Shown here piece after piece: positions 15,601-35,370 of a stretch of DNA of 64,000 nt. The notes under the pieces were generated by a model. The model saw only the letters and a list, made by a program, of their open reading frames with translations, was not told the origin of the DNA and did no database searches. The stretch's first letter is position 1. The number at the start of each line of letters is the position of its first letter. Source of the stretch: Rhizobiaceae bacterium (GTDB lineage: Bacteria; Pseudomonadota; Alphaproteobacteria; Rhizobiales; Rhizobiaceae); the NCBI GenBank assembly GCA_016742175.1, contig JACVCH010000005.1:1-64000 (forward strand), given 5' to 3'. Position numbers and translations under genes: made by a program.

Positions 15601-16138
15601 CGGACCATCGCCGGCGCTCGAACGCGGCTCGGCGATCCACCGCCTGCTGCAATCGCTCCCGGACGTGGCCGAGGCCGAGCGCGAAGCGTCAGTGCGGCGT
15701 TATCTCGGCCGGATGGGCGAGGGCTGGGAGGAGGACGATCGCGATCTGATCTGGCGGCAGATCGCCGCGATTCTCGACGATTCGACATTTGCGGGTGTCT
15801 TTGCCTCAGGGTCGCGCGCCGAAGTCTCGATCATGGGCCGCGTGACGGTCGGCGGTATAGAGCGCGCCGTTTCCGGTAAGATCGACCGGCTGGTCGTCAC
15901 CGAACGCGAGGTTCTGATCGTCGACTACAAGACCAACCGCCCGCCGCCGCGCAGCCTCGCCGCCGTGCCGCCCGGCTATGTCGCGCAGCTCGCGCTCTAT
16001 CGCGCACTGTTGCAGCCGCTCTATCCGGATCGAGCGGTTAGCGCGGCGCTGCTTTTCACCGAGGCGCCGATCCTGATCGACGTGCCCGAGACCGCGATGG
16101 ATGCGAGCCTTGCCGGCCTTGCAGCGCGCGTTTCTTAA
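12617..16138 (+). CDS. addA: Double-strand break repair helicase-nuclease AddA
   Basis: A 1173-residue UvrD-like helicase and nuclease, the catalytic motor of AddAB. The ATG at 12617 overlaps the addB stop; longer upstream frames are not supported. Walker A is SANAGSGKTHV (residues 28-38). DEAQDTSPEQW is the Walker B region, followed by VGDEKQSIYSFQGA, MTAHASKGLEAPVVFLV and LLYVGMTRAEDRLVV, all classic superfamily 1A motifs. The C-terminal nuclease domain contains VLIVDYKTNRPPP. In rhizobia trxA commonly follows addA; here a convergent RibD-like gene on the other strand overlaps the addA stop by four bases. Confidence 0.96.
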   Translation: MKSPFVVPESTIRDQARASDPKNSAWVSANAGSGKTHVLSQRVIRLLLDGTDPSRILCLTYTRAAAANMSNRVFETLSSWTALDDAALAARIAELDRRAPTRERLIRARRLFAEALETPGGLKIQTIHAFCEAILHQFPLEANVAGHFELLDNQMEAALIAEARRSMIAGASGGNEPELAEAFADILDIGGETGLENLLGAIVRRRDDLRSFIDQVGPAPENHAPLFAAFGFTGAETADDILAGIWPDSYFGRPLAERLADRALAAGKVKAQQFAEDLLAACDAGDAELCLNALRTAFLTKKGPSYEPRATKQILAKGVAEHFDGFDEEFARMAGALQVALDRAALLAMLKASRSALIVADWLIARYERLKSARGFLDFNDLIRRTASLLARQDAGAWVHYKLDKGIDHILLDEAQDTSPEQWRVVKRLADEFFAGETARGIERTVFAVGDEKQSIYSFQGAEPEAFAVSGHEFARHVEGAERSFARVRLSHSFRSTQDVLSAVDLVFARPETRKGLTRDIEEIRHSAIRTDEPGQVEVWPSLAPQDVEAPDDWTQAIDHTSAPAAKLAELIARTVAGWLAKGEMIPGRNRRMTAGDVMVLVRKRGNFVHALSRELKNRHVPVAGADRLVLADHIAVQDLMAIGRFALQPEDDLSLAALLKSPIFGVSEERLMEIAYHRRGSLYAAIRAEAERDVELKLVRDQLQVWRDEVGFMPAFEFYGRVLGRDAARARIVARLGPEAGDVVDEFLSFCLAAERSGAAGLEAVLALLDGGGPEIKREMDQSRGEVRIMTAHASKGLEAPVVFLVDSGSAPFSDSHLPTLMPFDPPRGFWNGPGFLWRTGGETNNGFARQIAAVAREKAEEEYRRLLYVGMTRAEDRLVVCGYQGKRAPADLTWHRMVSEALAASEHARAEPHPVSGEHIVVYRETPRRPMAVGEVAQEPQKQAIALPAALLAPLPAAPILPRPLAPSGVGAVIEAARDPVGSQGSPIFAAEAGPSPALERGSAIHRLLQSLPDVAEAEREASVRRYLGRMGEGWEEDDRDLIWRQIAAILDDSTFAGVFASGSRAEVSIMGRVTVGGIERAVSGKIDRLVVTEREVLIVDYKTNRPPPRSLAAVPPGYVAQLALYRALLQPLYPDRAVSAALLFTEAPILIDVPETAMDASLAGLAARVS

Positions 16139-16956
16139 GCCTTCAGATCGCAGTCGATGACGATGTCGCCGCCAAGTCCGTAGACATGGGCGCGGGGGCG
16201 CTTGGCCTGCGCCAGAAGCGAGACCGGGTTGGTCGTCAGGCCGGGCGGACCCGCGCCGATGATCAGGGGCGAAATGCCGACATGCAGGCGGTCGACGAGG
16301 TCGGCATCCATGAAATGCCCGATCGTGATACCGCCGCCCTCGATCATGACCCGCCGGAAACCGCGCTCGATGAGGCCGGTGACGATGGACACGGGATCGA
16401 GACCGTCGGCGGAGGACGCGACCTTCAGCGTCTCGACGCCGGGCGGGCGTTCGCGTTCGCACGCCTGGACGACGAGGCACCGCTCGCCGGTCATCAGGGC
16501 AGCGTCGTCGCCGAGCCGCCCACGCGGATCGATGACCACGCGCGCCGGATTGTCGCCCTTGACGAGGCGGACTGTAAGGCGCGGATTGTCCTGGATCGCC
16601 GTGTTGGCGCCGACGATGACGCAATCGGCGAGCGCACGGCAGCGATGGAGATGCTTGAGGCCTTCCGTGCCCGACACGTCGGCGGCGTCGCCGTCGACCG
16701 TGGCGACGCGGCCGTCGAGCGACTGGCCGATTTGCGCAAAGACGAAAGGCCGGTCGCCCTGCCCGAGCAGGGGCGCATAGAGCTCCCACGCGGCGCGCTC
16801 ACCAGCGCTCCAGACCGTCGACGCGCGAGCCGTGCCGCTGCTGCGCGCCGCGAGCAGCGCATCCCACACGCGATCCGTGACCGTCGCGGCCGCGACCGGC
16901 ATGTCGGCGGAGGCGGCTGACCGATCGTCGGCCTGGATGCGCTCATGCTGGTTCAT
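16135..16956 (-). CDS. RibD C-terminal-domain reductase (RibD family, no deaminase domain)
   Basis: A 273-residue protein with only the reductase half of RibD/dihydrofolate-reductase-like enzymes. After ~60 N-terminal residues (VWDALLAARSSGT) it has FAQIGQSLDGRVA, VIVGANTAIQDNPRLTVR and MIEGGGITIGHFM, the substrate and NADPH motifs of aminouracil or pterin-type reductases. It lacks the zinc deaminase domain of bifunctional RibD, and no other riboflavin gene is near, so classical riboflavin synthesis is not the obvious role. The start at 16956 follows a ggagg site; longer frames run into the sulfatase-fold gene, which it overlaps by 14 bases. It is the last gene of a minus-strand operon. The substrate is unknown. 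Confidence 0.8.
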   Translation of the reverse strand: MNQHERIQADDRSAASADMPVAAATVTDRVWDALLAARSSGTARASTVWSAGERAAWELYAPLLGQGDRPFVFAQIGQSLDGRVATVDGDAADVSGTEGLKHLHRCRALADCVIVGANTAIQDNPRLTVRLVKGDNPARVVIDPRGRLGDDAALMTGERCLVVQACERERPPGVETLKVASSADGLDPVSIVTGLIERGFRRVMIEGGGITIGHFMDADLVDRLHVGISPLIIGAGPPGLTTNPVSLLAQAKRPRAHVYGLGGDIVIDCDLKA

Positions 16957-18562
16957 CGCTGTCCACTTCCTCCCGCACCGGAGTGCCGAATGCCTCGACG
17001 AAGCGCTTGCGGAACGTGTCCATCCGCCACACCGGCGCCTGAGCGGTCGGAATTGCGCCTTCGTCGAACGACCAACCTTCGATTGATTCCAATGTGGCGC
17101 GGTCGCCGATGAAGTGAACGGGCACGTCGCGATTTTCTTCATCGCCGGAAACGAACGTTGCCGGCTGGTGGTCGCCGAGAACGACGATCAGCGGCGCGGG
17201 GCGGCCCTGACGTTCGACGAAGGAGGCGATGGTGCGCAGCGAATAGTCGATCGAGAGGCCGAACTGCGCCCGCACGCGATCGTGATCGCGCCAGACCGTC
17301 TCCGGGCTGTCGCCGGCGCGCGCCTGGTCGTTGAAGATCGTGCCGTCGCCGATCGCATCCCAGTCGACGAGGTGCGGAATCGGCGTCCACGGCGCGTGTG
17401 AGGAGATGAGCGCGATTTCGGCGAAAACCGGCTTGCGGCCCGGCTCGTCGAGTACCAGCCGCTCGAAGGCGGAGAGCGTGTACTGGTCGGGCATCGTCAC
17501 CCAGTTGAAGGGCAGGCCGCGATAGCCGAGATCGTCCTTGGCGAGGATTCGGTCATAGCCGAAATAGCTTCCCTCCGGCCACGCCATGGTGATGGCGGGC
17601 ATCACCGCGACGCTCTGCCAGCCGGCATCGGAGGCGAGCGCCATCAATGATTTTCGCGAACTGGCCAGCATGGCGCGGTAGCGGCCCTGGCTGTCGATCC
17701 ACAGGCCCGAGAGGACACTGGCATGGGCAAGCCAGCTCTGGCCGCCGACCATGGGCGCGGTGAGATAGGCCGAGCGGACTTCGAGGCTCGCTCCTTTTGC
17801 GCTGGTTTCGAGCGCGGTCAGGGCGGCTTTGGTCGATGCCTCGTAAAGCGGGTTTTCCAGCGTCGAGCGCCCGTAGGATTCGACGAAGACGAGGAAGACG
17901 TCGCGGCCGGCGAGCCCTTGCAGGAGCGATCCGTCGGCGACGTCGTCCGACCGGGCCTCGACTTCGAGCGCGGCGATTTCCGCCTGCGCCGACCGTGCCG
18001 CCGAAACATGCGTGGCGAGAAGTTCGCTCGATGCGGTCGAGGCGCGGTCGGTCAGGACCAGCGCGCCGGCGAAGATGAGCAGGATCGCCAGCGTCGGAAC
18101 GGTGCGCCGCGCCGAAAGGCGGGCGAAGACGCCGGTCGCCCACCAGATCGCGGCGATGGCGGCTGTCAGCGCCAGCACGCCTGCGACGAGATAGAGGCTC
18201 GCTGCGATCGTTCCACTCGTTCCCGAAGCCAGCATCCAGCCCGCGTGAAGCAGCGGCAGATCATAGGCGAAGTTGAACGGCCGGTTGAGCGAGGCGTGCA
18301 GGCCGAGATCGGCGCATTTGACGAGGAGCGCGACGCCGAGCAGCGCGGTGAAGATGCCGCGCAGGCCGAACAGAGCCCGATGGTTGCGCGGCAGCACGGC
18401 GAGGAGGCCGGCAACCAGCGCGAGTTCGACGGGAAACCGGATGACGTAAGCGAGATTGGCGTCCTGCGGCCGAGACGGCATCGCGAGGATGGCGAAGACG
18501 AGCACGCAGGCGGCGGCAACCGCCAGGAGGCGCGGCCGCTCAAACTGTCGCGCGGCGTGCAT
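16943..18562 (-). CDS. LtaS/sulfatase-fold membrane transferase
   Basis: A 539-residue protein with about five N-terminal membrane helices (residues ~15-180) and a periplasmic alkaline-phosphatase/sulfatase-like domain. VFLVFVESYGRST is the first metal-binding stretch, GGQSWLAHASVLSGLW sits where LtaS and phosphoethanolamine transferases have the catalytic threonine, and LIVVLGDHQPA is the late Asp-His metal site. The putative nucleophile is Ser, not Thr. Such proteins move phosphoglycerol, phosphoethanolamine or similar groups onto envelope glycans or lipids; true lipoteichoic acid is not expected in this group. The start at 18562 has a good gggag site and limits overlap with fkbM to 23 bases. 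Donor and acceptor are unknown. Confidence 0.78.
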   Translation of the reverse strand: MHAARQFERPRLLAVAAACVLVFAILAMPSRPQDANLAYVIRFPVELALVAGLLAVLPRNHRALFGLRGIFTALLGVALLVKCADLGLHASLNRPFNFAYDLPLLHAGWMLASGTSGTIAASLYLVAGVLALTAAIAAIWWATGVFARLSARRTVPTLAILLIFAGALVLTDRASTASSELLATHVSAARSAQAEIAALEVEARSDDVADGSLLQGLAGRDVFLVFVESYGRSTLENPLYEASTKAALTALETSAKGASLEVRSAYLTAPMVGGQSWLAHASVLSGLWIDSQGRYRAMLASSRKSLMALASDAGWQSVAVMPAITMAWPEGSYFGYDRILAKDDLGYRGLPFNWVTMPDQYTLSAFERLVLDEPGRKPVFAEIALISSHAPWTPIPHLVDWDAIGDGTIFNDQARAGDSPETVWRDHDRVRAQFGLSIDYSLRTIASFVERQGRPAPLIVVLGDHQPATFVSGDEENRDVPVHFIGDRATLESIEGWSFDEGAIPTAQAPVWRMDTFRKRFVEAFGTPVREEVDSDEPA

Positions 18563-19283
18563 AGACGTCTCCCGAGCGGCCACGGCCGATGGCGGCGGCG
18601 ACATGGTCGCGGATCGCGGCCGCGTCGACCCAGTGCGGCGACAGGAACTGCAGCCTCTCGCCCGTCATCAGGTTGAATTCGTAACGGCCGAGGCTTTCCA
18701 GCCGCGCGATGCAGGATTCGGCCACATCGCCCATCGATGGCAGGAACTCGAAGGCGAGCGCGGAAACCGGCCGGCTGAGCCCGGCAAGAACCTGATCCTC
18801 GAACCCCTCGACGTCGATCTTGATGAAGGCGGGTGCGCCATGCTCGGCGATGAGCGCGTCGAGCGTCGTCATCTCGATCTCGGCCGTCTCGTCCCAGGTG
18901 ACGGCGTCGAAGCCGGCATCGCCCTTCACCGCGGTGCCGATGTCGGCGCGCAGCGAGGAGACCGTCGGATGAAGGCTGGAGACGGACATGCACGAAGAGC
19001 CGCGATGCGGCCCGACCGCGAGCGGCAGGACGGTGATGTCCGCGGGAAGGGTGCGCTTCAGGAACCGGTAGAAGAGCGGCTGCGGCTCCAGCGTGACGAC
19101 CTTCGCGCCGGTGCGGCGAAGCGCGCGCGATCGATTGCCGACATGGCCGCCAATGTCGAAGACGACGTCGCCCGGCCCCGCGAACTGGCCGTAGAAGCGC
19201 CCCGTCCGGCCGATCCGGTGGGGACGGGAATAGTAGATGATCAGCGAGCGCGCGAGCCCGGCCGCGCTGCGCAGCCCGCTCAT
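18540..19283 (-). CDS. FkbM-family methyltransferase
   Basis: A 247-residue SAM-dependent methyltransferase. VVFDIGGHVGNRSRAL (near residue 40) is the SAM-binding loop, followed by the acidic LEPQPLFYRFL. FIKIDVEGFEDQVLAGL near residue 170 is the hallmark FkbM motif. FkbM enzymes usually O-methylate sugars or secondary metabolites. The start at 19283 overlaps the end of the upstream CDP-alcohol phosphatidyltransferase gene (ATGA), and the 3' end overlaps the LtaS-like gene, so it is the second gene of a coupled envelope-type operon. The target is not known. Confidence 0.85.
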   Translation of the reverse strand: MSGLRSAAGLARSLIIYYSRPHRIGRTGRFYGQFAGPGDVVFDIGGHVGNRSRALRRTGAKVVTLEPQPLFYRFLKRTLPADITVLPLAVGPHRGSSCMSVSSLHPTVSSLRADIGTAVKGDAGFDAVTWDETAEIEMTTLDALIAEHGAPAFIKIDVEGFEDQVLAGLSRPVSALAFEFLPSMGDVAESCIARLESLGRYEFNLMTGERLQFLSPHWVDAAAIRDHVAAAIGRGRSGDVYARRATV

Positions 19284-20026
19284 GCGGCCACCGGCCGGCG
19301 CAGGAGATGGACGATATCGATGGCGAAAGACCAGGTGAGGAGGACGAGCGCCATGGCCGCGATCCAGACCGAATGCGGCGGTTCGATCTGCGGCAGGAGC
19401 AGTAGGCCGAGCGCGGCGATCTGCACGACGCAGACCGCCTTGCGGCGCATCGATTCGGGCAGCGGCGCTTCCAGCTTCGGCGTCAGCCGGCCGGCGAAGA
19501 AGAAGGCGTAGCGCATCGCGCCGATGAGGAGCACCCAGGCGCCGGCCTTGCCATGCGTGAAGGCGAGCGCCGACAGGACGAGGACGAAGAGCGCGTCGAT
19601 CTCGAGATCGAACCTTGCGCCGAAGGTCGAGGCGAGGCCGGTGCGGCGCGCCAGCCAGCCATCGACGCCGTCGAGCGCCAGGATGACGAAGGCGAGCCCG
19701 CCGATGAGGAGAGCGGCGTCGCCGCTGGGTGCAGGCGCGAAGAGCGTCGCGGCGATGAGCGCGACGAGCCCGGCGCGTATCAGCGTCACGGCATTGGCCG
19801 CGCCGAAGGCCTCGTGCGGATGGCTGGTGGTGATCCGCGTGATGATGCAGGCGGCGACGACGAGATAGAGCACGATGCTGGCCGCGCCCCAGCCGAGGCC
19901 AAGCGCGTCGAGGCCCATGGCGGCAAGCGCGGTTCCCGCGCCCACGGCCTGCACCCAAAGGCCGGCGCGCGCCGCAAGGCCATGCGGCCCGCCCACTCCG
20001 GCTGCCCTGGTCGATGTCGTCGTCAT
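19280..20026 (-). CDS. CDP-alcohol phosphatidyltransferase family membrane enzyme
   Basis: A 248-residue integral membrane protein with six or so helices. It carries the complete family motif DGVDGWLARRTG followed at the right spacing by G and D-x3-D (FGARFDLEID), which binds Mg2+ and the CDP-alcohol. Members join a CDP-activated alcohol (CDP-diacylglycerol, CDP-inositol-like or CDP-glycerol-like donors) to a second alcohol. Length and extra N-terminal helices differ from standard PgsA and PssA, so it is probably not the housekeeping phosphatidylglycerol or phosphatidylserine synthase. It is the first gene of a minus-strand operon ending with the RibD-type reductase, and diverges from the cytochrome b561 gene. 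Confidence 0.85.
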   Translation of the reverse strand: MTTTSTRAAGVGGPHGLAARAGLWVQAVGAGTALAAMGLDALGLGWGAASIVLYLVVAACIITRITTSHPHEAFGAANAVTLIRAGLVALIAATLFAPAPSGDAALLIGGLAFVILALDGVDGWLARRTGLASTFGARFDLEIDALFVLVLSALAFTHGKAGAWVLLIGAMRYAFFFAGRLTPKLEAPLPESMRRKAVCVVQIAALGLLLLPQIEPPHSVWIAAMALVLLTWSFAIDIVHLLRRPVAA

Positions 20027-20152: not shown

Positions 20153-20698
20153 ATGGGCTATGATCGGATGTCCCGCATCCTGCACTGGCTGACCGCCCTG
20201 ATGGTGCTGGCGATGATCCCGGCCGGCCTGATCATGACCAATGTGGACGATCGCGCGGTACAGGACCCGCTCTTCATCTTCCACAAGAATGCCGGCGCGC
20301 TGCTGCTGATCCTGATCGCCGTCCGGCTGGTCTGGCGCGCGACGCATAAGGCACCGCCTCTGCCCGACAGCCTGCCGCGGGCCCAGAAATTTGCCGCCCG
20401 CGCGACTCACGTCGCGCTCTACCTGCTTTTGATCGTCATGGCGGTGAGTGGCTATGTGCGGGTTCGGGCCGGGGGATTTCCGGTCGAGCTTCTGGACGCG
20501 ATCGGCGTCCCGAACTTCATCCCGCGCGACGACGCGCTGGCCGAGACGGCGAAATCCATCCATGCCCGCGCCAAGTTCGGCATCGGCCTCTTCATCGCGT
20601 TGCATGTCGGCGCCGCCGCCTATCACGGCCTCGTGCGCCGCGACGGCGTCTTCTCGCGGATGTGGCCGCCTACGGCTTCGGCTGCGCGAGTTCCTTGA
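20153..20698 (+). CDS. Cytochrome b561-type membrane protein
   Basis: A 181-residue protein with four transmembrane helices and histidines in the positions expected for two b-type haems: ILHWLTA near residue 10, FIFHKNAG near 44, ATHVALYLL near 90 and IALHVGAAAYH near 145. This matches small cytochromes b561 that pass electrons, often from quinol, to a periplasmic or membrane partner. It is transcribed alone on the plus strand. Its last 29 bases overlap the end of the convergent flavoprotein gene. A TTGACT at the end of the upstream spacer may be a -35 element. The redox partner is unknown. Confidence 0.85.
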   Translation: MGYDRMSRILHWLTALMVLAMIPAGLIMTNVDDRAVQDPLFIFHKNAGALLLILIAVRLVWRATHKAPPLPDSLPRAQKFAARATHVALYLLLIVMAVSGYVRVRAGGFPVELLDAIGVPNFIPRDDALAETAKSIHARAKFGIGLFIALHVGAAAYHGLVRRDGVFSRMWPPTASAARVP

Positions 20699-21902
20699 GG
20701 CGCGGCGCGCCGGCGGCGATGTCGGCATCGGTCGGCGACACGCCGGCGGCGAGCAGGCGCCGTGCGATCATGTGATCGGCGGCGCGGTTGATCGAATCGA
20801 CCGCCAGCAGCCTCGGCCCGGCGAAATGCCAGACGGAGAAGGCGTTCTCTTCGGGGTTTCCGGACGTGACGAACCGGTCGGCATCGAATGAAAGCCCCGC
20901 CGTCTGCAGCTTGATGTCGCCCTGGTCCGACCAGAACCACGGCACGTCGCGATAAGGAGCGGGCTTGCCGGTGATGGTGCGCGCGGCGTGCTTGGCCTGG
21001 TCGCTGGCATTCTGCACCGATTCGAGCCGCACCGAACGCGCCGCGTGCCAGTGATGGAAGCTGGCAGCGTCGCCGAGCGCAAGGATGCGTGGATCGGCGG
21101 TGCGCATCGCCTCGTCGACCACGATGCCGTTGGCGGTTTCGAGCCCGGCCTCGGCAGCGAGTTCGACATTCGGCACGACGCCGGTGCCGAGAATGACAAG
21201 ATCGGCCGGCACGCGCGAGCCGTCGGCGAGCCGCACGGCGTCGACATGGCCGTTCGCGCCTTCGATGCCGGCAACGCCGGTCCCGACCCGCACATCGATG
21301 CCGGCCTGCCGTGCGCGCGCGTCGGCATAGGCCGAGATCGCCGGCGCGACCGAGCGGCCGAGCACGCGCGGCGCCATTTCGAGGAGCGTCACCTTTTTGC
21401 CGAGGCCGGCGAGCGTGTGGGCGATCTCCATGCCGATGAAGCCGCCGCCGACCACGACGGCGGACTGTGCGGCCTCGGTCGCCTGCCGGATGCGACCGGC
21501 ATCCGCGAAGTTGCGAAGGGCGAAGACGCCGTCGAGCGCGAGGCCATCAAGAGGCGGCAGGCGCGGACGGGCGCCGGTGGCCAAAATGATGTGCGAGAAG
21601 GGCAACGACGTGCCGTCGTCAAGCGACACCGTGCCCGCCTGGCGATCGATCGCCGCGACGCGGCGGCCGAAGACGAGGTCGACCGCATTGTCGCGATAGA
21701 AGCTTTCGGGCCGCAGCATCTGCGACCCGCCATCGGGCGTCTTCAGGAAGGTCTTCGAGAGCGGCGGCTTGTGGTAGGGCAGTTCCGTCTCGTCATTGAC
21801 GAGCGCAATGGCGCCGGAAAAACCCTCCTGCCGCAGGCTCGCGGCGGCCTGCGATCCGCCATGCCCGGCGCCGACGATGATGACCCGATCTTCCACGCGC
21901 AC
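20670..21902 (-). CDS. FAD/NAD(P)-dependent ferredoxin-reductase-like oxidoreductase
   Basis: A 410-residue two-dinucleotide-binding flavoprotein of the rhodocoxin/putidaredoxin reductase group. FAD site VIIVGAGHGGSQAA (residues 7-20), then YHKPPLSKTFL, ILATGARPRLP, the NAD(P) site VVGGGFIGMEIAHTL, and LALGDAAS for the flavin ribityl contact. The C-terminal reductase domain includes WFWSDQGDIKLQ, typical of the group. It would transfer electrons from NAD(P)H to a 2Fe-2S ferredoxin, but no ferredoxin or P450 gene is in the window. It lies 67 bases downstream of the methyltransferase gene on the same strand and may belong to that transcript. Confidence 0.9.
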   Translation of the reverse strand: MRVEDRVIIVGAGHGGSQAAASLRQEGFSGAIALVNDETELPYHKPPLSKTFLKTPDGGSQMLRPESFYRDNAVDLVFGRRVAAIDRQAGTVSLDDGTSLPFSHIILATGARPRLPPLDGLALDGVFALRNFADAGRIRQATEAAQSAVVVGGGFIGMEIAHTLAGLGKKVTLLEMAPRVLGRSVAPAISAYADARARQAGIDVRVGTGVAGIEGANGHVDAVRLADGSRVPADLVILGTGVVPNVELAAEAGLETANGIVVDEAMRTADPRILALGDAASFHHWHAARSVRLESVQNASDQAKHAARTITGKPAPYRDVPWFWSDQGDIKLQTAGLSFDADRFVTSGNPEENAFSVWHFAGPRLLAVDSINRAADHMIARRLLAAGVSPTDADIAAGAPRLKELAQPKP

Positions 21903-21969: not shown

Positions 21970-22731
21970 TCAGGCCGGCAGGGCCAAGACGTCGAGATGG
22001 CCGACTGTGCAATGGGCGCTGGGTGCTGCAGCAAGACGCCGTTCGCGCCAGGCATCGGCCGATGCGACGTCGAGTTCGCGCGCGGCATCCGCGATCCCGG
22101 TGACGAGCGCGCGCTGCAGTTCAGTCTCCGCCGGCCCGAGTTTCCAAGGGCTGTCGGCGACCGTGACGCGATAGCCGCGTCTGCGCATGGCGTCCGCGAG
22201 GTGGGATGCACCCGAAGGGCCGAGCGCGGGGCCAAAGCCTTTTTCGCCGCGCTGATGCGCGTTGAACGCGTCGCGGATCGCGGCATCGTCGGGATCGGCC
22301 GGGCTCCATTCGAGGACGCCGTCATAGCTGAGCGCGGCATAGAGGCCCGTTTGCGATGTGGAGAGCCGGTCGGCGAGCGCGTCGATCCAACTTGCGCTGG
22401 CGAGGTCGAACAAGGCCGAAGCGGTGACGAGCGCGGCGCCTTCGAGCGGGATGTCGGCGGTGCGGGTGAGGTCGAGCTCCACGGTCTCGACCGTCGGGCC
22501 GGATCGCCGCGCGGCTTCGGCGAGCAGCGCCGGATCGTGGTCGACCAGGCGCCAGCGCCCCGGAACGTCGCCGATGGCGCGCAGGGTGGAGCCGGTGCCC
22601 GAACCGAGATCGACAATGAGGGGGGCGGGACGCTGCGCGAGGTATGCGCGAACGTCAGCGAGCAACAAAGCGTCGCGCGCGGCGTTGTCGGTGCCTTCGC
22701 GCAGGTCGAGCCATGCGGTGGAAAAGCTCAT
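21970..22731 (-). CDS. Class I SAM-dependent methyltransferase
   Basis: A 253-residue Rossmann methyltransferase. LIVDLGSGTGSTLRAI (about residues 37-52) is the SAM-binding motif, WRLVDHDPALL the following acidic loop, and VTASALFDLAS the post-II motif. There is no membrane segment. The start overlaps the stop of the glycosyltransferase gene (ATGA), so it is translationally coupled to the dehydrogenase–PTPS-like–glycosyltransferase series. The substrate is probably the product of those enzymes, but nothing in the sequence names it. Confidence 0.82.
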   Translation of the reverse strand: MSFSTAWLDLREGTDNAARDALLLADVRAYLAQRPAPLIVDLGSGTGSTLRAIGDVPGRWRLVDHDPALLAEAARRSGPTVETVELDLTRTADIPLEGAALVTASALFDLASASWIDALADRLSTSQTGLYAALSYDGVLEWSPADPDDAAIRDAFNAHQRGEKGFGPALGPSGASHLADAMRRRGYRVTVADSPWKLGPAETELQRALVTGIADAARELDVASADAWRERRLAAAPSAHCTVGHLDVLALPA

Positions 22732-23774
22732 CGGCCGATCTCCTCGAGCGCGCGGGCGACGATGGCGGTCGTGTCGGACCAGCCTGGAAGGCGCTCGGCG
22801 GCAAGGCGCGCGCCTTCGGCGGCGCTCGCATAGGCTTCGTCTTCGCAGAGAAGCCGCCGCAAGGCATCGGCGAACGCGGCCGGATCGTCAGCAGGCACGA
22901 GCGCGCCGGCCTCCGGCGGCACGACCTCCGGCACCGCACCGACCGCACAGCCGACGATCGGCAGGCCAGCGGCCAAAGCCTCGGCATAGGCCATGCCGTA
23001 GCCTTCGTGGCGGGTGGCGAGGACGAAAATGCCGGCTTGCGCGTATTCGGGATTGAGATCGTTCAGCGGGCCGGTGAATTCGATGCGATCGGCGAGGCCG
23101 GCATCCGTGATCATCCGGTCGAGCCGCGCGCGCCAGACTTGATCGCGCGAAGGCCCGACGAGCCGCGCATTCCAGTCCAGATCGGCGATCTTCGTGAGCG
23201 CTTCGACGAGGACGTCGTGACCCTTGCGCGGGACGATGGACGCAACGCAGAGAAGGCGCGTTCGATCTCTCTCATAGGTAAGCGATGGCTTACGTTCGGT
23301 TCCGGGCGGTGCGACGGACAGGTGTGATGTCGACACGCCGTAATGATCGGTCAGCCGGCGTCCCGTCGTACTGCTCGTACAGATGATCGCTGACGCATGG
23401 CGGAGCGCAGCACGTTCGTCCGCCTCGAAACGTGCTGCGGTTTCGGCTGGCAATCCGCCCTCGTCGGCGAGCGGATGATGGATCAGCGCGGCCAGCCGCA
23501 ATCGGCCGGCCTGGAGCCCCATCAAATCGGGAAGCCGGGCGAAGGCGAGCCCGTCGACCAGCACCAGCGCATCGTCGGACAGGTTCGCAAATGCCGTCTC
23601 GGCCGCGTGGTGCGTTTCTGCGTCCGTGGCAGGGTAGCTGCCGGGAAGAGAAACGATCTCGACGGTCCAGCCCAGTTCGCGCAATCCGGCGGCGACCTGC
23701 CGGTCGTAGCCATAGCCGCCGGTGGGCGTCTCGATGTCGCCCGGAACGACGAAATGGAGATGCGGCTGCGTCAC
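22728..23774 (-). CDS. Glycosyltransferase family 4 (GT-B fold)
   Basis: A 348-residue GT-B glycosyltransferase starting at a GTG that overlaps the PTPS-like stop (GTGA). The N-terminal acceptor domain has VVPGDIETPTGGYGYDRQVA. The C-terminal donor domain has VASIVPRKGHDVLVEAL, RIEFTGPLNDL and the E-x7-E signature in HEGYGMAYAEALAAGLP. It lacks signal or membrane segments, so it acts in the cytosol on a small molecule or a membrane-surface lipid. Sitting between a pterin-synthase-like gene and a methyltransferase, it may glycosylate a pterin-like or other small product. That role is inference. Confidence 0.85.
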   Translation of the reverse strand: MTQPHLHFVVPGDIETPTGGYGYDRQVAAGLRELGWTVEIVSLPGSYPATDAETHHAAETAFANLSDDALVLVDGLAFARLPDLMGLQAGRLRLAALIHHPLADEGGLPAETAARFEADERAALRHASAIICTSSTTGRRLTDHYGVSTSHLSVAPPGTERKPSLTYERDRTRLLCVASIVPRKGHDVLVEALTKIADLDWNARLVGPSRDQVWRARLDRMITDAGLADRIEFTGPLNDLNPEYAQAGIFVLATRHEGYGMAYAEALAAGLPIVGCAVGAVPEVVPPEAGALVPADDPAAFADALRRLLCEDEAYASAAEGARLAAERLPGWSDTTAIVARALEEIGR

Positions 23775-24166
23775 AACTCGCCTTCGTACCAGGCGCGCGC
23801 GACATGGCTCTCGTGAAGCTGGACGCGGATCTTCACGACGCGGCCATTGTCGCCGAGGCCCTTGGTGCGGACGGTTACCGCAAGTTCGTCGAAGATGTGC
23901 TTGCACAGGAATTCGGTGGTGGTGATCTTGCCCTTGAAGGCGTCGATCTCGTCGAGATTGCCGTAGCGCAGCGGGTCGAGCGCGGCCTTCAGCGCGTCCG
24001 TCGCCAGCCCGATATCGACGGTCAGGCCGTTGTCGTCGATGTCGCGCGTGTAGAAGGCGGCGTCGACGACGAAGGTCGCGCCGTGCATGTTCTGCGCCGG
24101 GCCGAAGACGGGCGAGGGCAGGCTGTGGGCGATCATGATGTGGTCGCGAACTTCGACGGCAAACAT
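23771..24166 (-). CDS. PTPS/QueD-family protein with altered catalytic residues
   Basis: A 131-residue protein of the 6-pyruvoyl-tetrahydropterin synthase / 6-carboxytetrahydropterin synthase fold. His14 (IMIAHSL) and His28 (NMHGATF) fit two zinc ligands, but the usual HGH is HGA (Ala30), and the position of the catalytic Cys before LHGH is Ala24/Gln25. VDIGLATDAL, TTTEFLCKHIF and VQLHESHVARAWYE keep the Asp/Thr-Glu/Glu pterin-binding positions. It may bind a pterin-like substrate but catalyse something else, or use a different ligand set. It starts directly after the dehydrogenase stop and overlaps the glycosyltransferase by four bases. QueD for queuosine is an alternative, but no queC or queE is nearby. 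Confidence 0.75.
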   Translation of the reverse strand: MFAVEVRDHIMIAHSLPSPVFGPAQNMHGATFVVDAAFYTRDIDDNGLTVDIGLATDALKAALDPLRYGNLDEIDAFKGKITTTEFLCKHIFDELAVTVRTKGLGDNGRVVKIRVQLHESHVARAWYEGEL

Positions 24167-25123
24167 CTATTTTCCTTCGTATCGGATGCGGTGGCAGAGC
24201 GTCGCCGGATCGGCGAGGATTTTTTGATAGTCGCGGTCGAGCGTGGCGAACGGGCTCGTGCCGGAGATCAGCGTGTCGAGCGCATCGTCGTCGGCGAGAA
24301 GGTCGAGCGCCTTGGCGAGCCGCCGCCGGAAATCCCAGCGAGGCGCGCGCTCGGCCGGGATCGAGCCGACCTGCGAGGAGACGAGTTTCAGCCGTCCGGC
24401 GTGGAAACTGGCGCCAAGCGAGAGATCGACGCGCTTGTCGCCATACCAGCTCGCCTCGACGATCCGCGCGTCGCGGCCGGCGCAATCGAGCGCAGCCTGG
24501 AGGCCGGCGGCGCTGGCGCTGGCGTGAATGGCGACGTCGCAATTCGCCGGCGGCTGCGAGGCGAATGCGATGCCGAGGCGATCAGCGATCGCTTCTCGCG
24601 CCGGATTGATGTCGACCAGCGAAACTTCCGTGCCGGGAATGCGGTCGCAAAGCCAGGCAGCGAGCATGCCGACGACACCGGCGCCGATCACGGCGATGCG
24701 GTCGCCGGGAGCGGCGCGCGCGTCCCAGACGATGTTGAGCGCTGTTTCCATGTTGGCGGCGAGAACGGCGCGAGCTGGCGGCAGATTGGCGGGAAGCGGC
24801 GTCAGGTCTGCGTCGGGGACGGCGAAACGGTCCTGATGCGGGAAGAGCGAGAACGCAATCTCACCCGCGCGCGGGCCTGAGACGATGCGCCCGACATTGG
24901 CGTAGCCATACTTGACCGGGAACGGGAAATCACCCGCCTGATGCGGGCAGCGCATTCGCTCGCGCTCCGATTCGGGCACCGCTCCGTCGAAGACCAGCGA
25001 TTCCGTGCCCCGGCTGATGCCGCTGAACAGCGTTACCACCGCCACCAGATTGTTGCCCGCCGGCAACGTTTCCTGCCGCAGCGCACACATATTCCGGTCG
25101 GTGATCCACAGCGCCGTCGCCAT
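24167..25123 (-). CDS. Medium-chain dehydrogenase lacking the usual catalytic zinc Cys
   Basis: A 318-residue protein of the zinc-alcohol-dehydrogenase (MDR) family. The GroES-like part reads SGISRGTESLVF where classical enzymes have a Cys-Gly-Thr-Asp zinc motif, so the catalytic Cys is absent. The nucleotide site is IAVIGAGVVGMLAAWL, followed by the acidic SLVDINPA, which suggests NAD(H). The same SRGTES-type loop is known in BchC-like hydroxyethyl dehydrogenases. The start at 25123 removes a long unsupported N-terminal extension. It is the first gene of the operon leading into the PTPS-like, glycosyltransferase and methyltransferase genes, diverging from phaZ. The substrate is unknown. Confidence 0.8.
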   Translation of the reverse strand: MATALWITDRNMCALRQETLPAGNNLVAVVTLFSGISRGTESLVFDGAVPESERERMRCPHQAGDFPFPVKYGYANVGRIVSGPRAGEIAFSLFPHQDRFAVPDADLTPLPANLPPARAVLAANMETALNIVWDARAAPGDRIAVIGAGVVGMLAAWLCDRIPGTEVSLVDINPAREAIADRLGIAFASQPPANCDVAIHASASAAGLQAALDCAGRDARIVEASWYGDKRVDLSLGASFHAGRLKLVSSQVGSIPAERAPRWDFRRRLAKALDLLADDDALDTLISGTSPFATLDRDYQKILADPATLCHRIRYEGK

Positions 25124-35285: not shown

Positions 35286-35370
35286 GCCCAGGTGGCGGAA
35301 TTGGTAGACGCGCACGGTTCAGGTCCGTGTGCCGCGAGGCGTGGAGGTTCGAGTCCTCTCCTGGGCACCA
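35286..35370 (+). tRNA. tRNA-Leu(CAG), CCA encoded
   Basis: An 85-base tRNA. The acceptor arms GCCCAGG and CCTGGGC pair perfectly and are followed by A plus encoded CCA. The D arm contains TGGCGGAATTGGTAGACG. The anticodon stem CACGG/CCGTG encloses loop TTCAGGT with anticodon CAG at 35320-35322. There is a class II variable arm (around tgccgcgaggcgt) and a T-loop GGTTCGAGTCC. A long variable arm and CAG identify leucine, reading CUG codons. A strong promoter precedes it. Confidence 0.96.

Follow-up and report, generated by a model that had tools for sequence, protein, structure and literature searches.

Pterin glycosides of cyanobacteria and green sulfur bacteria carry a sugar on a pterin-type ring, involve a GT4-like transferase, and derive from GTP cyclohydrolase I (GCH I) and enzymes of the 6-pyruvoyltetrahydropterin synthase (PTPS) type. 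In the archaeal branch of riboflavin biosynthesis, 2,5-diamino-6-ribosylamino-4(3H)-pyrimidinone 5'-phosphate (DARoPP) is formed and then reduced to its ribityl form; the deformylase ArfB is a creatininase-family protein. From Streptomyces, a structure paper of 2008 on SCO6650 reportedly found zinc and PTPS activity to be absent, and a 2006 paper on the GTP cyclohydrolase II (GCH II) paralogue SCO6655 is said to have described a formyl-retaining product. Here we analyse a 64,000-nucleotide stretch of a Rhizobiaceae bacterium (contig JACVCH010000005.1; the window), which contains a four-gene operon on the minus strand at 21970-25123, encoding a dehydrogenase of the medium-chain dehydrogenase/reductase (MDR) fold, a PTPS-like protein, a GT4-type glycosyltransferase and a methyltransferase (MT). 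This operon is probably at the centre of a widely distributed and as yet undescribed pathway in which GTP enters the GCH II branch, that is, early riboflavin rather than folate biosynthesis. A search of the full-text literature, in which subscription papers are mostly outside coverage, found no described pathway for the cluster, its genes or the Streptomyces homologues.

The core operon and its PTPS-like protein

The MDR and PTPS-like genes abut with a junction of 0 bases, and the PTPS-like/GT4 and GT4/MT junctions are overlaps of 4 bases each (Table 1). Pfam analysis placed the PTPS-like protein in the PTPS fold family (PF01242, 75.2 bits against a cut-off of 22.4) and the GT4 protein in glycosyltransferase group 1 (PF13692, 109.4 bits against 27). 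The MT scores slightly below its threshold (PF13649, 26.2 bits against 27), and its predicted structure is that of a class I SAM methyltransferase (pLDDT 96.9). The MDR protein is likewise under the ADH_zinc_N cut-off (19.6 bits against 31.8) and its model adopts the MDR dehydrogenase fold (mean pLDDT 82.6; residues 63-72 fall under 50); BchC membership is not supported (TIGR01202, 37.7 bits against 291.25). The PDB matches listed for the MDR and MT models are nearly all MDR and class I SAM methyltransferase folds, and no closer functional relative of either protein was found among them. In alignment A3, the motifs SRGTE and PVKYGY are invariant in all 16 MDR sequences, at what we take to be the two ligand-bearing segments of zinc-dependent MDRs. 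This fits a zinc-free enzyme, which would lack the catalytic zinc ligands of MDR alcohol dehydrogenases. An earlier note on this DNA, made from its letters and open reading frames, had described a four-gene operon with 0-4-base junctions, an MDR without its zinc Cys and PTPS-like, GT4 and methyltransferase products, and all of these assignments were confirmed.

The only close solved relative of the PTPS-like protein is 3d7j, deposited as 'uncharacterized protein SCO6650' (E 3.7e-35; E 1.2e-60 by profile, with the next match at 2e-5). The two proteins are 53% identical over 130 aa and have their invariant residues in common, which places the window protein in the SCO6650 family. A residue census was made over 172 sequences, comprising 171 loci and SCO6650. 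The catalytic Cys position, which precedes the zinc HxH motif by four residues, is Ala in all 172; the first two zinc His residues are retained in all and the third is replaced by Ala in all. Gln25, Asp51, Asp72, Glu85 and the LHES-motif Glu are retained throughout, and the residue following Asp72, which is His in QueD, is Glu in 105 sequences, Asp in 39 and another residue in the remainder. The meanings of these positions presumably carry over from QueD and PTPS, as does the pterin-anchoring role that we assume for the C-terminal Glu. The protein also falls short of the QueD model (TIGR03367, 32.2 bits against 89.25). As judged by these residues, the PTPS-like protein represents a conserved family that resembles enzymes and whose chemistry is putatively different; it is not QueD, even though many database records label such proteins 6-carboxytetrahydropterin synthase.

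Another PF01242 gene of this genome lies next to frames that were identified by eye as QueC- and QueE-type. Its QueD-type product (L001, C22:68502-68849) has the HxH zinc motif and, by eye, Ser at the position of the QueD catalytic Cys.

Conservation and linked riboflavin-type enzymes

Strong PTPS-like and strong MDR matches fall in an identical set of 89 of the 297 genomes sampled from the order, and the gene order MDR-PTPS-GT4-MT is kept on a single strand in 69 of 91 neighbourhoods, so the grouping is not a chance one. These neighbourhoods comprise 60 from the order, 16 from a phylum sample, 7 from the Actinomycetota side and 8 from plasmids; the 60, which come from 59 genomes, were drawn mostly from the top of a list of 90 strong PTPS-like places, which biases them to higher-scoring copies. 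Within the 60, GT4 is found in 59, MDR in 58 and MT in 54, followed by the RibD-like gene (32), cytochrome b561 (32), FkbM (21) and GCH II (20), and by the CDP-alcohol phosphatidyltransferase (7), sulfatase-like (7) and LPG-synthase-TM (4) genes. For the best 80 of at least 554 loci from named relatives, the corresponding counts are MT 80, MDR 78, GT4 57, RibD-like 75, FkbM 49, CDP-alcohol phosphatidyltransferase 48, inositol monophosphatase 45, sulfatase-like 43, GCH II 39 and LPG-synthase-TM 38, where absences partly reflect truncation because only 67 of the 80 stretches reach 15 kb. The CDP-alcohol phosphatidyltransferase gene is present in six of the seven Actinomycetota-side loci.

The genomes of the order are related by descent, so that its species are not independent draws for the co-occurrence count. 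For the 74 loci, out of 91, that have the complete core, the distance matrices of its four proteins are correlated (r 0.64-0.75, with 0 of 500 permutations reaching such values); vertical descent alone would yield the same result, so this was not used as functional proof. Presence in the family of the window organism is patchy, at 1 of 12 other genomes in the order sample and 2 of 16 listed in the phylum sample. Across the phylum draw, the PTPS-like protein occurs in 27 of 398 genomes (E ≤1e-15), 11 of them beyond the class; a draw around an Aquiluna genome gave 23 of 296, nine of them strong (E ≤1e-30), and 20 of 72,556 plasmid records were positive. The same core is present in Rhodobacterales, a gammaproteobacterium and Actinomycetota as well as in Rhizobiales. 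Weaker matches were kept out of these counts, namely five genomes with weak PTPS-like matches (G122, G151, G176, G192 and G199; E 1.3e-5 to 6.8e-4), 13 with only weak MDR matches (E 4.6e-47 to 3.5e-63), eight with weak RibD-like matches (E 2.6e-39 to 9.7e-36) and 14 weak PTPS-like matches on the Actinomycetota side (E 1.8e-19 to 4.0e-16).

Two Streptomyces plasmids carry PTPS-like genes 72-78% identical to SCO6650 (L217 12001-12426 and L222 12001-12399) that sit in a different context from the core operon: MDR, GT4 and MT are missing, and both have genes for a MEKHLA-domain protein, a cupin, an MBL-fold hydrolase and a BTAD regulator nearby.

A RibD-like protein encoded in the window points to the likely precursor. 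It belongs to the reductase family PF01872 (131.8 bits against 24.1), has no match to the N-terminal deaminase domain of bifunctional RibD, and does not reach the model for 2,5-diamino-6-ribosylamino-pyrimidinone 5'-phosphate reductase (TIGR01508, 102.3 bits against 186.45). By profile, its best PDB chains are 6p8c and 2azn (144 and 133 bits, all others at most 113), under the chain names 2,5-diamino-6-ribosylamino-4(3H)-pyrimidinone 5'-phosphate reductase and putative 5-amino-6-(5-phosphoribosylamino)uracil reductase. Because the deaminase domain is absent and these relatives are stand-alone reductases, the 2-amino group, which a PTPS-type pocket could read, should remain in the product. Strong RibD-like matches occur in 68 of the 297 order genomes, 67 of them among the 89 with the PTPS-like gene and one among the 208 others (a genome 56% complete). 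This co-occurrence is not mere neighbourhood, since 24 of the 68 copies have no PTPS-like gene on their contig at a distance of 10 kb or less. Eleven of those 24 have a GCH II gene no more than 2.5 kb away among the GCH II matches listed, which extend to about E 2e-34. The GCH II/RibD-like pair is therefore a second module that accompanies the PTPS-like operon even when it is located elsewhere.

A profile search found GCH II in 73 of the 171 neighbourhoods. With an E. coli sequence as reference, the position of Tyr105 is occupied by Tyr in 61 of these proteins, Met in six and Leu in five, with one fragment. All six Met-type loci have a creatininase-family gene and no RibD-like gene; the remaining 67 all carry the RibD-like gene (at merely 64 bits in L236), and five of the 61 Tyr-type loci have a creatininase-family gene too. 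In SCO6655, Met at this position reportedly makes GCH II stop at the formylamino-pyrimidine. The creatininase could, from its context, be the deformylase that completes the Met-type reaction, and the pairing suggests that the cluster needs a deformylated diaminopyrimidine nucleotide. A Leu-type GCH II is found in the neighbourhoods of L126, L134, L138, L142 and L161, all from one genus (g63), whose genomes have a canonical GCH II elsewhere and in whose stretches no creatininase gene was found; judged by this residue, it is possibly another formyl-retaining type.

No FolE, QueC, QueE, QueD or RibH gene was detected in any of the 171 neighbourhoods by tblastn with proteins of the window organism (E ≤1e-8), a test that used single queries and is less sensitive in Actinomycetota. 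A RibBX-type query matched 12 of the 171, and the examples checked were the GCH II genes. Elsewhere, the genome of the window organism has FolE, the QueD-type gene described above and, at a distance of about 1 kb to RibH, a PF01872 gene (515-aa frame); the copies in the cluster are hence paralogues.

The genome and two Aliihoeflea genomes have one PF00925 match each (112-117 bits); in the window organism it is a fusion with RibB, and inspection by eye shows no zinc Cys in the GCH II half. A canonical-scoring GCH II (PF00925, E <1e-40) is commoner in genomes with the PTPS-like gene, at 53 of 89 compared with 39 of 208 others. Supply may also be independent of GCH II: Yurgel et al. 2022 (PMC9478397) showed that Sinorhizobium and a relative form DARoPP with the formamidase BrbF, and proposed a GCH III-type enzyme yet to be identified. 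The window organism may therefore have DARoPP without GCH II.

Across the order sample, 205 of the 297 genomes are without a canonical-scoring GCH II (best PF00925 E >1e-40, with no match in 18), and the place C16:156517-156969 of the window organism's genome (L113) belongs with this set. Such genomes agree with the GCH III that was postulated for Sinorhizobium and its relatives (PMC9478397) and offer a large pool in which to look for it.

Proposed pathway and alternatives

From the observed linkage, co-occurrence, folds, family memberships, lost residues and paralogy, we infer a series of reactions, their order and a product. GTP would be opened to DARoPP either by GCH II or by a form of it that retains the formyl group and works together with the creatininase-family deformylase; otherwise, DARoPP would be drawn from the host riboflavin route. 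The RibD-type reductase would then turn the ribosyl into a ribityl chain with the 2-amino group kept. Next, the zinc-free MDR and the PTPS-like T-fold protein would reshape or cyclise the side chain, for which the pterin-anchoring Glu would suit the 2-amino-4-oxo edge common to pterins and diaminopyrimidines. Finally, GT4 would add a sugar and MT a methyl group. The MDR and PTPS-like proteins appear to be the heart of the pathway because both are present in all 89 genomes, even in those without a RibD-like gene or a canonical GCH II. The favoured product would be a dedicated diaminopyrimidine derived through GCH II, which may later become a pterin and which would undergo redox processing, glycosylation and methylation and perhaps be linked to the membrane. 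For some hosts, attachment to a membrane or export of the product is suggested by the recurrence of CDP-alcohol phosphatidyltransferase and of membrane proteins of the LPG-synthase type.

The boldest reading, which rests on chemical reasoning and which we hold tentatively and think rather unlikely, is a GCH I-independent route to a pterin through GCH II, the RibD-type reductase, MDR and T-fold closure, followed by glycosylation and methylation. In such a route, the RibD-like enzyme would reduce C1', the MDR would convert the 2'-hydroxyl into a ketone, and the 5-amino group would be closed onto that ketone by the T-fold protein. In place of the Amadori rearrangement carried out by GCH I, reduction and re-oxidation would lead to a dihydroneopterin-type monophosphate or, with a different closure, to an N8-ribityl pterin. 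An N8-substituted pterin and a monocyclic diaminopyrimidine glycoside are equally open as products.

Several observations weigh against a GCH II-branch pathway of this composition. Of the 89 genomes with the PTPS-like gene, 22 are without a strong RibD-like match and 36, that of the window organism included, without any canonical-scoring GCH II. GCH II is present in only 20 of the 60 order neighbourhoods; since 12 of these 20 genomes list no other at 139 bits or more, it may there just be a nearby riboflavin enzyme. The six Met-type clusters have no RibD-like gene, and their creatininase scores 37 bits against the ArfB model (cut-off 180) and better, at 141 bits, against MftE (cut-off 172). 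MDR is missing near the PTPS-like gene in two of the 60 order loci (L141 and L168), one of which is the second PTPS-like copy of its genome, and in two of the eight plasmid loci. A membrane link may be lineage-specific, given CDP-alcohol phosphatidyltransferase in only seven of the 60 order neighbourhoods.

Alternatively, GCH I-derived dihydroneopterin triphosphate could be the starting point, and the operon would turn it into a tetrahydropterin that carries a sugar and a methyl group, similar to cyanopterin or limipterin, with the PTPS-like protein as a drifted PTPS. The T-fold with its C-terminal Glu retained in all 172 sequences, the GT4 and MT genes of the operon and the GCH I encoded in the same genome would all agree with this. 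However, the catalytic Cys and third zinc His are replaced in every sequence, FolE is in none of the neighbourhoods, and the co-occurring genes are those for GCH II and the RibD-type reductase, which makes this origin unlikely. It is also improbable, and slightly more so, that the locus serves to decorate a surface polymer or lipid through GT4, FkbM, CDP-alcohol phosphatidyltransferase, sulfatase-like and LPG-synthase-TM proteins, with PTPS-like, MDR and RibD-like proteins making only a head group; membrane and sugar genes do recur at loci from Rhizobiaceae, Rhodobacterales, the gammaproteobacterium and Actinomycetota, but the CDP-alcohol phosphatidyltransferase, sulfatase-like and LPG-synthase-TM genes are infrequent in the order neighbourhoods (7, 7 and 4 of 60) while the core genes persist. 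That the PTPS-like protein is a QueD paralogue for a queuosine-like 7-deazapurine modification, as the database names and the weak TIGR03367 match might suggest, is hardly credible given a score far under the cut-off, the lost key residues, the absence of QueD, QueC and QueE from all 171 neighbourhoods and the separate QueD-type gene of the same genome.

The GCH II-branch pathway retains part of what the earlier note had proposed. Its argument from tight coupling is upheld in that the genes are tightly coupled, serve one pathway and are widely conserved. Two doubts that it raised, that the genes might rarely be together and that the PTPS-like protein might be an ordinary QueD, fall away, as the neighbourhood survey found the core genes nearly always together and the protein is not QueD; its remark that no such pathway is described holds as far as the searchable literature goes. 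The note's observation therefore stands, and so does its interpretation with regard to coupling and conservation, but not with regard to gene number, origin or taxonomic limit: the RibD-type reductase and often GCH II belong to the system too, and the core is no peculiarity of Rhizobiales. Its glycosylated pterin survives as one possible end product, without the tie to GCH I, as the linked enzymes indicate the diaminopyrimidine branch of riboflavin biosynthesis.

Members of this set are annotated as queuosine or riboflavin enzymes although the set occurs in 89 of 297 genomes of the order, and many '6-carboxytetrahydropterin synthase' annotations would be corrected. The orphan crystal structure 3d7j gains a gene context, as does the orphan GCH II paralogue SCO6655 if the gene numbering is read rightly. 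The proposed pathway predicts substrates that can be prepared enzymatically, and the redox route to a pterin would, if true, add a second biosynthetic strategy by which the pterin ring is built.

Neighbouring genes and comparison with known systems

Table 1. Genes of the core operon and its surroundings in the window
Feature	Position	Strand	Remarks
MDR-fold dehydrogenase, zinc ligands lost, distantly BchC-like	24167..25123	-	318 aa; first core-operon gene
PTPS-like T-fold protein, SCO6650 (3d7j) family	23771..24166	-	131 aa; catalytic Cys and third zinc His replaced by Ala
GT4-type glycosyltransferase	22728..23774	-	348 aa; GTG start; 4-base overlap with PTPS-like gene
Class I SAM-dependent methyltransferase (MT)	21970..22731	-	253 aa; 4-base overlap with GT4
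Ferredoxin-NAD reductase-like flavoprotein	20670..21902	-	Between both operons; conserved only in nearest relatives
Cytochrome b561	20153..20698	+	Recurrent neighbour, 32/60 order neighbourhoods
CDP-alcohol phosphatidyltransferase	19280..20026	-	Recurrent neighbour; putative pathway role
FkbM family methyltransferase	18540..19283	-	4-base overlap with CDP-alcohol phosphatidyltransferase gene; recurrent neighbour
Sulfatase-like protein	16943..18562	-	PF00884 24.6 bits against cut-off 25; recurrent neighbour
Stand-alone RibD-type reductase	16135..16956	-	PF01872, deaminase domain absent; DARoPP proposed as substrate

A second coupled run of minus-strand genes lies at 16135-20026, with overlaps of 4, 23 and 14 bases given starts set by eye (the RibD-like ATG at 16956, and the sulfatase-like start at 18562 inside a longer frame of 16943-18604). 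This run was not part of the earlier note. Among its genes, the RibD-like one above all shares a conserved set with the core operon. The ferredoxin reductase gene was rejected as a pathway member, as close similarity is limited to L033-L035 (88-94% identity); in L036 and L037 the gene is absent and the second run is inverted, and it is probably a recent passenger. Rfam at gathering thresholds found only a tRNA (35286-35367) and no known riboswitch in the 64-kb window. A candidate Pho box upstream of the MDR gene (CTGTCATNNNNCTGTCAT) was set aside because its excess is small and the control weak, the best match agreeing at no fewer than 10 of the 14 positions for 31 of 163 upstream regions compared with 89 of 815 mononucleotide shuffles.

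With QueD and 6-pyruvoyltetrahydropterin synthase, the PTPS-like protein shares the T-fold family PF01242 and differs by the lost catalytic Cys, the lost third zinc His and its neighbours. The 8-azaguanine (ptn) cluster of Streptomyces (PMC7109123) is likewise described as building a natural product on a 2,5-diaminopyrimidine nucleotide, but through GCH I-like ring opening and triazole closure by nitric oxide, and the ptnA-F genes listed there include no core gene of the present operon.

Closer counterparts are six loci, on a Streptomyces fungicidicus plasmid and in five genomes, with a PTPS-like protein that shares 86-94% identity with SCO6650. Each of the six has genes for GCH II, the creatininase, LPG-synthase-TM, MT, GT4, the PTPS-like protein, MDR and CDP-alcohol phosphatidyltransferase. 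These Streptomyces-type loci combine a Met-type GCH II with the creatininase and have no RibD-like gene, whereas the window has the RibD-like gene and no GCH II. The gene numbers SCO6650 and SCO6655, together with these six loci, suggest that SCO6655 lies in this cluster. In S. coelicolor, expression of SCO6655, annotated as GCH II, opposes the predicted riboflavin flux (r -0.61), and the authors listed genes such as this as candidates for secondary metabolism (PMC2853524).

The archaeal riboflavin branch, with GCH III, ArfB and a stand-alone reductase, would share its early chemistry with the proposed pathway, and it provides the closest solved relatives of the RibD-like protein. The archaeal-type route is described as running from GTP via the formylamino-pyrimidine to DARoPP (PMC9478397). 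It uses GCH III and continues with lumazine synthase, whereas at the present locus GCH II or the host would supply the precursor, which would then pass to MDR, the PTPS-like protein, GT4 and MT.

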